Of a stretch of 64,000 nucleotides of DNA, positions 23,772-58,841 are shown one piece after another. The position numbers and the translations under genes were made by a program. Under the pieces are notes generated by a model, which saw only the letters and a program-made list of their open reading frames with translations, made no database searches and was not told the DNA's origin. Each line of letters begins with the position of its first letter. Positions within the stretch are counted from its first letter, which is position 1. The DNA lies in assembly GCA_001534745.1 (NCBI GenBank), contig CP013997.1, positions 2,914,001 to 2,978,000 on the forward strand. Reading direction: 5' to 3'. Source of the DNA: Pseudomonas monteilii. GTDB taxonomy: Bacteria; Pseudomonadota; Gammaproteobacteria; Pseudomonadales; Pseudomonadaceae.

Positions 23772-23942
23772 GCTTTTTACCGTCTTCGTTAGTACTGCGC
23801 TTCGGCGCTGCCCCATCGCTGGGGCCGCACCACCTGTGACCGTTAGCTCTCGGCCAGTGCCTCGGGCCCGATCCGGCGGACATTCCGCGGTGAGTCATGC
23901 ACGCAAGACTCACGACGGGCAGACCGCCGTGGTTTCTTATGA

Positions 23943-29579: not shown

Positions 29580-29764
29580 GCTTGGTCACCCTCGGTTAGG
29601 GGACGATCGACAAGAGCCAGGGAACGCCTGAAAAAGCCCGAATACAGCGGCTCAATCGCGCCACCGAGGATCCTGCAGATTTCCGGGTACCAGCCCGGAA
29701 GCCCCTGCTGGTCTCATAGCTTCATGGGTAATGAGCGGGGCCTTATGAGCCCATGCCCGGGTTT

Positions 29765-29799
29765 CACCTCGGCGTGGGTTCATGCCCCACGCCTCGGTG
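29765..29799 (-). terminator. Hairpin between sdhB and sucA
   Basis: Imperfect 14-bp stem CACCTCGGCGTGGG / CCCACGCCTCGGTG with a 7-nt loop, about 25 nt past the sdhB stop. No T-run. It may attenuate read-through from sdh into suc or protect the sdh 3' end. Confidence 0.5.
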
Positions 29800-56163: not shown

Positions 56164-56405
56164 GTGTGGGAGCGGGCTTGCCCGCGATGGCATCGGCGGC
56201 CTCGCTGCATCGCCAACAGACAGAGCGCCGGACTATCCACCCTGCAGTGGCTGCACAGGCCCAATCGCTGGCAAGCCAGCTCCCACCCAGCCCGCATGAA
56301 ACCTGCCGGCATGCATCCGTTCGGACATCCCCCTGTGGGAGCGGGCTTGCCCGCGATGGCGGCGGCAGCCTCGCCGCATCGCCGACAGACAGAGCGCCGG
56401 CCTAC
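56164..56405. repeat. REP array and first 40-bp direct repeat
   Basis: Class A REPs at 56164-56190, 56262-56287 (inverse) and 56335-56360, separated by short spacers. The spacer CAGCCTCGCCGCATCGCCGA... at 56366-56405 recurs at 57181-57220 (38 of 40 identical) on the other side of the GAD-like gene; a more diverged copy is at about 56195-56234. Confidence 0.85.
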
Positions 56406-57270: not shown

Positions 57271-57319
57271 GAACAAAAAATAGCTTGTTGATTTCAAAGG
57301 AAATAATTTTAGAATTTTG

Positions 57320-57440
57320 TGGGCCCTGCGGGCCCAATCGCGGCACAGGGGCCGCTCCTACAGGTGACCGTGATAGCCTGCAACCCCGCGGTGGGGCTAC
57401 GGGTGTAGGAGCGGCCCCTGTGCCGCGATGGGCCGCAAAG
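57320..57440. repeat. Inverted pair of class B REPs
   Basis: GGGCCCAATCGCGGCACAGG at about 57330 and its inverse TAGGAGCGGCCCCTGTGCCG at about 57406 face each other across a 45-nt spacer, a different palindrome family from class A. A short AT-rich stretch (57270-57315) precedes it; no gene is supported between 57154 and 57596. Confidence 0.75.
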
Positions 57441-57597
57441 CGGCCCTAAAATCGATTAGCAATGAAGCTTCGAATTTTGCCAGCTATCGGCCATGTTCTC
57501 TGCGCGACAGCGCGGCACCAAGGCGGCGGGCGGACTCCTACCCAGCCCGCATGAAACCTGTCGGCATGCATCCGCTAAGACACCACCCTGTGGGAGA

Positions 57598-57607
57598 TTC
57601 TATGGTA
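57598..57607 (+). repeat. Left terminal inverted repeat of the IS110 element
   Basis: TTCTATGGTA; pairs with the complement of 58761-58770 with one mismatch. Confidence 0.75.
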
Positions 57608-57619
57608 ATTGCCAAGCGC

Positions 57620-58567
57620 TTAAGCGGCTTTGGGGCGATATTCCTCTCCGCTTCTGATCAGGGCAAAGACCACTCGAGCCAGCTTGCGGGCCAGCATGAC
57701 CAGGACTTGAGTCTTTTTAAAACCGCGGCTCTGCTTGTCTTCGTAAAACGTTTTCCAAGCAGCTGTCCTGCCTGCTGACATCGCCGCGTTGTGCAGCAAA
57801 CGACGGACCTCTGGATCGCCTCGTTTGGTCAACGTCGAGCGTTCTTTTTTCTTGCCCGACTGAGCCACTCGCAGGTCCATTCCTAAAAAGGCGATGAAGG
57901 CATCGGCACTCTTGAACTCGCCTCGCTGGTAGGTGGCGACCAAACGCGCAGCGGTAAGAAAACCAATACCTTCAACTTTCATACACTGCTTTACTAACGG
58001 CATCAGTCCTGCCTGGTCGAGCAGCTTCTTGATCATGTTTTCAATGAGGTCTTCAAGGCGCTTCATCGAGGTGAGCTGGGACTTCAAAAGGTTCTTGAGC
58101 AGCGGCTCACCCTCCCAGCTCAGTCTCAGCGCTGTACGCGTCTGGACGAGCATCGCGCGCCTGCGAAACAGGCTGACAAGGTCGCGATAGAGTGTCGAAG
58201 GGGGGATCCAGGGGGTAAGATTAGCGCCTTCGTTCTTGAGGTACCGGGCCAGTACCCTTGCATCGATCGGGTCGGTCTTGGCGCGTGAGCCAATACCTTT
58301 TCGGTAGTGACTCAGGGCATAACCATCCATCAAGTAAAGGGTATGTCCTGCTTCATGGACCATATCGGTAAACAGCAGGTGATAGACATTGGTGGCCTCG
58401 ATTGCAATCGAGACCTTGCCGTGCAATGCCTTGATCCATTGTTTAATAGCCGTCTTGTTGTTGGCAATAGTGCTCAACTGTCCGGAGCTGTCTTCGTAAA
58501 TGACGAGCTCAGCCTTAGCAACGTCGACGCCTATGATCGTGCTGTGTTCGGATGATGGCATTGCCAT
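57620..58567 (-). CDS. IS110-family transposase (DEDD recombinase)
   Basis: 315-aa recombinase. N-terminal RuvC-like DEDD domain with Asp15 in IIGVDVAKAE, Glu57 in VSIAIEATNVYH, and Asp99 and Asp102 in KTDPIDARVLARYL. C-terminal Transposase_20 domain with GIGFLTAARLVATYQRGEF, AFLGMDLRVAQSGKK (candidate catalytic Ser237) and KRGDPEVRRLLHNAAM. All key residues are present and the frame is intact, so it is probably active. Similar in length and residue spacing to IS621. ATG 58567 and 58561 are both possible starts. Confidence 0.93.
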   Translation of the reverse strand: MAMPSSEHSTIIGVDVAKAELVIYEDSSGQLSTIANNKTAIKQWIKALHGKVSIAIEATNVYHLLFTDMVHEAGHTLYLMDGYALSHYRKGIGSRAKTDPIDARVLARYLKNEGANLTPWIPPSTLYRDLVSLFRRRAMLVQTRTALRLSWEGEPLLKNLLKSQLTSMKRLEDLIENMIKKLLDQAGLMPLVKQCMKVEGIGFLTAARLVATYQRGEFKSADAFIAFLGMDLRVAQSGKKKERSTLTKRGDPEVRRLLHNAAMSAGRTAAWKTFYEDKQSRGFKKTQVLVMLARKLARVVFALIRSGEEYRPKAA

Positions 58568-58604
58568 GAGCGCGTCTCCGCAGGTAAGGTCTAAGGGCTT
58601 GAAG

Positions 58605-58760
58605 GGCCACCCAGAGGCGCAGGCTTGTACTTTCGTCGGTCAAAACCGGAAGCATTCCTTATCGGCGCTTGGGTGAAGGGAGGAGGGGCGAAATCTCCCA
58701 CGGTCTGTACTGCGCGAACAGTCAGAAGCGGATCTAGTCCCTCCTCCTCCCTTCAAGTCC
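58605..58760 (-). ncRNA. Candidate bridge RNA of the IS110 element
   Basis: Read on the minus strand, the 5' noncoding region folds by eye into two large hairpins with internal loops. Hairpin 1: 13-bp stem TGAAGGGAGGAGG (58755-58743) with CCTCCTCCCTTCA (58686-58674), inner stem CTGACTG/CAGTaCAG; its loop sides hold CCGCT (58731-58727) and GTGGGAG (58701-58695), which match the two halves of the REP target CAAGCCCGCTCCCAC on opposite strands and share the CT core. Hairpin 2: ACCCA/TGGGT plus GCGC/GCGC stem, inner CGGT/ACCG stem; loop sides hold GAATGCT (58657-58651) and TACAAG (58629-58624), the latter complementary to CTTGTA at the element's own left end. This is the target-loop/donor-loop layout of IS621 bridge RNA. 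Confidence 0.7.
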
Positions 58761-58770
58761 TACCATACAA
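58761..58770 (-). repeat. Right terminal inverted repeat of the IS110 element
   Basis: Minus-strand TTGTATGGTA, matching the left end at 9 of 10 positions. Confidence 0.75.
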
Positions 58771-58841
58771 GCGGGCTTGCCCGCGATGGCGGCGGCAGCC
58801 TCGCTGCACATTCACAGGCTTTGCGAGCCCTGCGCTGGCGC
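58771..58841. repeat. Interrupted class A REP, right part
   Basis: GCGGGCTTGCCCGCGATGG resumes directly at the IS right end and continues with the spacer GGCGGCAGCCTCGC seen after the intact REP at 56335. Its left part is at about 57586-57596. Confidence 0.88.

Follow-up and report, generated by a model that had tools for sequence, protein, structure and literature searches.

A predicted bridge RNA gene in a REP-inserted IS110-group element of Pseudomonas monteilii

Main finding

In silico analysis of a 64,000-nucleotide stretch of the Pseudomonas monteilii genome (the window) indicates that a non-coding region on its minus strand (58568..58771) very probably encodes the bridge RNA of an IS110-group insertion sequence that seems to be intact and is inserted in REPs. 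The RNA of this element very probably guides insertion into a common DNA repeat. The sequence basis consists of an intact recombinase, ends running from CT to CT, insertion at one point of the REP and covariation of guide and target. The bridge RNA mechanism was described in 2024, and bridge RNAs, the insertion of IS110 elements into REPs and the concordance of guide and target have already been published; the window element is a new example of the mechanism, accompanied by related elements with matching changes of guide and target. An earlier sequence-only reading of the window had proposed that a bridge RNA, with one loop for the target and one for the donor, is encoded at this place. This proposal is strongly supported by the covariation, compensatory base pairs, handshake letters and an IS621-like recombinase, and the interpretation of that reading as a whole is partly supported.

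Organization of the element and its insertion site

The complete element, from core CT to core CT, covers 1177 bp of the minus strand (57595..58771). Nine copies have been identified in the 4.71-Mb genome, all of 1177 bp, with identical ends and 98-100% identity; the extent given here is supported by all nine and by an intact paralogue of the target repeat. The left core CT is located at 58770..58771 and the right core CT at 57595..57596, flanked by the left target, a REP half with the sequence AAGCCCG (58772..58778), and the right target CCCAC (57590..57594), all on the minus strand. The CT dinucleotide at both ends and a fixed target site have been found in 9/9 copies. Alignment of the copies with their insertion sites, which had been proposed as a check, places the insertion point at CCG|CT|CCCACA in every case. 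The uninterrupted paralogue lies about 1.2 kb away (56280..56378, plus strand; repeat families D2 and D4) and represents an empty site with a single AG/CT, its positions 56280-56378 corresponding to 57535-57596 and 58770-58808. Since this paralogue is intact and has one core, the ends of the element and the 2-bp duplication are a direct reading. The sequences quoted in the sequence-only reading are all present on the minus strand, with CAAGCCCG-CT at 58779-58770 and CT-CCCAC at 57596-57590.

Between the cores and the transposase frame there are 202 bp at the left end (LE) and 23 bp at the right end (RE), i.e. a long non-coding LE upstream of tnp and a short RE; with its 23 bp, the RE does not contain an RNA gene of the IS1111 type. 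A subterminal pair TATGGTA/TACCATA of 7 bp was spotted by eye in the window element, and subterminal inverted repeats of 7-17 bp have been described for the IS1111 group (PMC11208160).

The tnp gene (57620..58567, minus strand) encodes a DEDD/RuvC-Tnp recombinase of 315 amino acids, identified by matches above the cut-off to PF01548 (E 1.1e-21) and PF02371 (E 5.7e-20) and by alignment to PDB structures. Residues D15, E57, D99, D102 and S237 align with D11, E60, D102, D105 and S241 of IS621, the catalytic residues as given in the text of PMC11208158; the tnp residues were assigned by manual counting in an alignment to the PDB entries of IS621 and ISCro4, where the numbering of the PDB chain runs two ahead. 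The recombinase is intact, and the frame is open, without stops, in 9/9 copies. A protein search returned 625 proteins at E <= 1e-60, and the best 120 of the 625 are named “transposase” or “IS110 family transposase”. The closest named copies of the element belong to Pseudomonas entomophila, and a tblastn search of plasmids gave 3404 records, each of them below 60% identity. Among the related transposase genes, those of L217, L218 and L219 (genome G125) carry one in-frame stop each.

Predicted fold of the LE non-coding region

The 205-nt strand of the LE folds with a minimum free energy (MFE) of -82.9 kcal/mol, compared to -68.8 +/- 4.5 for shuffled sequences (z -3.13; 2/200 shuffles as good), and the region is conserved in relatives. 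The two internal-loop hairpins that had been folded by eye are the main features of this MFE fold, in which the target loop is in addition partly self-paired. The predicted RNA contains two stem-loops with internal loops, the target loop first. In the first hairpin the outer stem is formed by GAAGGGAGGAGG/CCUCCUCCCUUC, and the left and right target guides are opposed between this stem and an inner hairpin, UCUG.ACUG/CAGU-A-CAGA with a bulged A (58704..58726, minus strand).

Support for the fold comes from compensatory changes. RNAalifold on a MAFFT alignment of 27 different 5' regions gave 28 pairs, seven of them with both sides changed, and recovered the inner hairpins, the donor stem and the closing stem; on this alignment the target loop lacked its outer stem, the right guide being paired with the 3' arm instead. 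Within the 27 aligned regions the changes of the inner hairpin are U-A to C-G in three, C-G to U-A in one, and U-A to C-G or G-C in two. The inner hairpin could be read in 63 of 67 distinct regions, and its three free pairs are standard in 63/63, with 2-3 pair types each; pairs 2, 4 and 5 are forced by the search pattern, so mainly pairs 3, 6 and 7 are informative. The donor stem changes from GCGC/GCGC to GCAC/GUGC in 5/63 regions, and a fifth tested pair forms in just 9/63. The outer stem is backed by the pairing of its arms in two lineages (31 arm pairs): pairing within the lineages reaches -27.4 and -25.3 kcal/mol, compared to -20 kcal/mol between them. When 3' arms from other elements are put in place of the original one, a mean of 32% of them match or exceed its pairing.

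A covariance search with the Rfam models, suggested together with the sequence-only reading, gave no match to a bridge RNA family, either at the gathering threshold or at E values up to 1. Two weak matches of Rfam miRNA models to a GC-rich hairpin are far below the gathering scores and were taken as chance. Elsewhere in the window there are matches to the Rfam models of the sucA-II and sucC regulatory RNAs (29583-29797 and 23773-23840, both minus strand). Among the relatives, L113 (2355-2554, minus strand) is a copy of 1095 bp whose bridge RNA region has no donor loop.

Left target guide and its covariation with the target

The relatives analysed are elements with the same ends, CTTG(T/G)ATG and CATAGAAT(C/T)T being required, collected from 80 loci of named genomes and from 41 matching genomes among 298 of the genus. 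Eight fragmentary matches were excluded, and after removal of 21 duplicates, recognised by their flanks, and of 19 loci in which the element is incomplete or absent, 179 unique insertions were retained, of which 177 were used for left-guide matching (two with N in the left target were dropped). A FastTree tree was built from 112 elements with the first 230 bases left out; L113 and rows with N were dropped.

The predicted left target guide of the window element is AGATCCG followed by the core CT (58727..58735, minus strand). As the sequence-only reading had noted, it contains CCGCT (58731-58727), which is identical to the top strand of the target at CCGCT. Among the 177 insertions, the seven letters before the core agree between guide and target at 7/7 positions in 89, at 6/7 in 56, at 5/7 in 15, at 4/7 in 13 and at fewer in four. 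The left-guide letters at the core are CT in just 19/179 insertions.

That changes in the loop covary with the targets of related elements was examined by comparing each distinct left guide with its commonest target. For 20 guides, counted after the groups L201-L206 and AGCTCGT had been re-read by eye with the targets in view, 117/140 letters match, compared to 85.6 +/- 4.0 expected (0/20,000 shuffles); in the uncorrected set of 21 guides the values are 112/147 and 85.0 +/- 4.1 (0/20,000 shuffles). Guide AAGCCGG is found with target AAGCCGG (1/1), AAGCCAG with AAGCCAG (10/12), AGCCGCC with AGCCGCC (6/6), CAATTCG with xxATTCG (6/6) and TAGTTCG with AAGTTCG (7/7), and in L201-L206 (genome G080) the left guide AAGCCGCC equals the target.

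The left guide has changed at least 26 times on the tree. At its position 5, eight tree-independent pairs gave 7.0 changes in the same direction and none in the opposite one (median p 0.016, range 0.008-0.125), and at position 2, nine pairs gave 6.0 and 0.2, respectively (median p 0.031, range 0.016-0.69). Positions 3, 4 and 6, with 5, 4 and 4 pairs that are mostly same-way or unchanged, offer too few for a test. Two genomes rich in both kinds of site allow a direct comparison. Genome G217 contains 359 AAGCCAG and 576 xxRCCCG sites, and genome G296 contains 295 and 427; insertions into AAGCCAG are 0/7 in G217, where the guide is ATGCCCG, vs 5/6 in G296, where the guide is AAGCCAG (Fisher p 0.005). 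A case against the rule is the pair L105 and L163, in which the remaining 5' regions are identical and one guide letter differs, yet the target is shared.

These results bear on two other explanations. According to the first, the loop matches are due to chance or are remnants of REPs caught in the element, and the transposase protein alone picks the target. REPs are indeed abundant and GC-rich, with 327 empty CCGCTCCCACA sites in the genome, and the guide of the window element is itself a weak match. However, guide and target change jointly between elements whose 5' regions are otherwise 97-98% alike (L016 vs L094; L025 vs L050), and do so on independent branches. Moreover, relative to the target one of the guides has the sense and the other the antisense orientation, a combination that a single captured REP would not yield. 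This explanation is accordingly regarded as very improbable.

According to the second, the structured 5' region is mainly a leader controlling the translation of tnp, and pairing with the target is secondary. A precedent exists in ISPpu9, whose structured 5'-UTR of 244 nt regulates tnp and which has an antisense RNA, as reported in PMC8450116, and both roles could coexist. A leader, however, has no need of a sequence that changes with the target's REP class, and as the main role of the region we give it only a slight chance. The preferred reading, that of a bridge RNA, goes beyond chance because guide and target covary in the relatives, and not by virtue of the single sequence by itself.

Right target guide

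The right target guide GTGGGAG (58701-58695, minus strand), as the sequence-only reading had seen, is complementary to CT-CCCAC. The two guides would address opposite strands of the target, as had been supposed, the left one pairing with the bottom and the right one with the top strand, and both covary with it. In the window element the right guide together with the handshake, GTGGGAG-ATT, is complementary at every position to the right junction AATCTCCCAC.

Among the relatives, GTGGGAG occurs with CTCCCAC in 162/165 insertions, and GTAGGAG with CTCCTAC in 8/8 insertions of two lineages (the L100 group and L071), with 2/2 independent tree pairs. A misfit is seen in the L201 type, where GTGAGAG occurs with CTCCCAC (6/6), giving one mismatch. 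Genome G018, with the right guide GTGGGAG, has 6/6 insertions at CCCAC; among the first 100 of its 274 ATTCGCTCCYAC sites 44 are CCTAC (hand count), and the chance of 6/6 CCCAC is about 0.03. Genome G094, with GTAGGAG, has 7/7 insertions at AAGTTCG-CTCCTAC, a sequence present at 49 of the first 100 among its 344 HNNNYCGCTCCYACR sites (hand count).

Donor guides and handshake letters

The left donor guide is located at 58651..58657 (minus strand). The sequence-only reading had compared this GAATGCT with the right end GAAT-CT, noting one extra base; the first part stands, as GAAT pairs with the right end and is kept in 173/174 insertions read (five of the 179 being unread), and the extra base is needless, GCT not being required. 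The two letters after GAAT vary (GC in 137, TC in 29, CC in six and CT in one), so the supposed extra base would rather be a position of the core that is left unpaired. The right donor guide TACAAG (58629-58624, minus strand) is complementary to CT-TGTA at the left end, as had been proposed. Its CAAG, pairing with CTTG, is invariant in 27/27 aligned regions; this unforced alignment is cited because the insertion-wide count forces CAAG by its pattern. As the relatives were chosen for ends that are near-invariant, the donor guides show complementarity and not covariation.

The handshake of IS621 involves position 7 of both DNAs: that of the donor is paired by the letter following the right target guide, and that of the target by the letter following the right donor guide (both as given in the text of PMC11208158). 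The window element has a corresponding target-loop handshake guide AT (58693..58694, minus strand), complementary to donor positions 6-7 (AT). Its A, set against donor T7, is invariant in 27/27 aligned regions and also occurs in 179/179 insertions, a count whose pattern excluded only T. The donor-loop handshake guide is CC (58622..58623, minus strand), the first C pairing with left-target position 7 (G). At this place, among 174 insertions, C with G7 is found in 163 and G with C7 in six (the L201 group); the exceptions are U with G7 in one, a wobble, and U with C7 in four, which is unpaired. The relatives form a small set of natural variants with joint changes of REP class, guide letters and insertion site, among them changes of the right guide and of the handshake. 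Owing to these joint changes, the pairing rules of IS621 can be checked in another lineage.

REP classes targeted by the window element

The sequence-only reading had concluded that the RNA would be programmed to target every class A REP of the genome. This is too strong, because 7/9 copies are inserted in REPs of the GGGGCCG type and 2/9 in those of the AAGCCCG type, to which the window copy belongs, and because the left guide is common to both classes only at CCG. The guide AGATCCG and AAGCCCG have in common only CCG and the first A, and with each of the two classes the guide agrees at CCG and one further letter. At 4/7, the match of this guide to its targets is the second lowest among the 20 guides, and the guide is identical in the nine copies.

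The 327 empty sites mentioned above include 74 of GGGGCCG and 246 of AAGCCCG, and against this background the 7:2 distribution of insertions gives an odds ratio of 11.6 (Fisher p 0.001). This excess of GGGGCCG is unpredicted by pairing of the left guide. CCG is present at 9/9 copies vs 327 of at most 583 empty CTCCCACA sites (Fisher p 0.006), the upper limit being 592 sites minus the nine right junctions of the copies themselves; at least one more of these is the right-end-like junction beside L004. In effect, the specificity of the window element amounts to CCG-CT-CCCAC, a sequence present in two REP classes. Its insertions are not explained by the left guide alone, and this constitutes a testable gap.

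In P. entomophila one left junction lies in GGGGCCG (L010), and the 5/5 right junctions seen in strain 4A7 are similar to the right flanks found at the GGGGCCG copies; since L004, a copy in AAGCCCG, also has a somewhat similar right flank, this is no more than a hint. The guide is the same in L011 (around 1796), a relative at 94%, whose left junction lies outside a recognisable REP. A tentative explanation, which we consider possible if rather doubtful, is that REP-targeting IS110 elements of Pseudomonas track the REP dialects of their hosts through short changes of the bridge RNA, and that the left guide of the window element has relaxed by drift until only CCG is read; a single RNA would then serve two REP classes, with a preference set outside guide pairing.

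Putative promoter and proposed mechanism

A possible -10 box, TATGGT, lies in the LE (58762..58767, minus strand), and a possible, weakly conserved -35 box, TTGGCA, lies at 57610..57615 (minus strand), 17 nt from it across the RE-LE junction of a circle. TTG is found at the -35 place of the junction in 17/55 distinct ends, and the best -35 score is at least 3/6 at spacings 16-18 in 53/55 ends vs 22/55 at the control spacings 12-14. These counts are no more than suggestive of a sigma-70-like promoter across the junction.

By analogy with IS621, the right and left ends would join in a circle upon excision, and a promoter spanning the junction would then transcribe an RNA of about 180 nt from the LE. 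The first loop of this RNA would pair with both REP strands through CCGCT and GTGGGAG, the second loop would do so with GAAT-CT-TGTA at the junction of the circle, and strands would be exchanged at CT by the recombinase.

Comparison with known elements

The closest model is IS621, an IS110-group element of E. coli described in PMC11208160 and PMC11208158. The descriptions there agree with the window element in an RNA encoded in the LE with the target loop before the donor loop, left and right guides of each loop directed to opposite strands, a CT core, handshake letters and insertion into REPs. There are also differences. The recombinase of the window element is distantly related (phmmer E 2e-21), the right target guide with the core comprises 7 nt compared to 4 nt in the published account of IS621, and in the window group the left-guide letters opposite the core are, as counted above, seldom CT.

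Two IS110-family elements of P. putida have comparable targets according to the text of PMC1525189: ISPpu10 is inserted in REPs in 7/7 cases, at one point and with a 2-bp repeat, and ISPpu9 in 7/7 cases with an AG (CT) repeat. For ISPpu10 a predicted bridge RNA has been drawn by Durrant et al.; its comparison with the window element is one of description and not of sequence. A search of literature titles on IS110 bridge RNA with REP or Pseudomonas, on ISPpu9 and on ISPpu10 found no further title dealing with a bridge RNA of a Pseudomonas REP element, figures, supplements and most subscription papers being beyond its reach.

ISPpu9 resembles the window element also in its structured 5' region of tnp and in the expression of RNAs from the element (PMC8450116). 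In contrast to the window element, ISPpu9 carries asr9, an antisense gene, and ssr9 downstream of tnp in 5/7 copies; with about 23 bp from tnp to the right core, the window element has no room for ssr9. In P. putida KT2440, Ssr9 starts after a “B-AG-A” junction (PMC8450116), a layout that corresponds to right end, core and left end. Ssr9 may be a bridge RNA or a derivative of one. The same source reports in KT2440 orphan A-ssr9-B copies apparently outside REPs; together with the B-AG-A junction, these suggest a bridge RNA mini-element with a different target.

The seekRNA of IS1111 elements such as ISPa11 is a further non-coding RNA that directs a DEDD transposase, in the case of ISPa11 into REPs; the RNA-guided mechanism is shown in the text of PMC11187229 for IS1111 elements and one IS110 type. 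The RNA is located downstream of tnp in IS1111 elements, as described there, and upstream in the window element.

Additional features of the element surroundings

At 57314-57452 there is an inverted repeat of 49 nt with 82% complementarity, each arm of which carries CGCTCCTACA, in the form GGGGCCG-CT-CCTACA on the plus arm; it represents a paired REP of the other class adjoining the element. In L004 (minus strand) a second right-end-like sequence, AAACCATAGAATCT-CCCACA, is present about 1311 bp past the left core, outside the copy and some 130 bp from its right end, perhaps the remnant of another element. L048 (around 1795) and L095 have CTCCCACATTTGGTAG on both sides of the element and a left flank unlike the guide; these flanks could be a 16-bp passenger from misplaced excision. 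Finally, L054 and L108 contain two full copies of a related element in succession, each with its own REP-like flanks.
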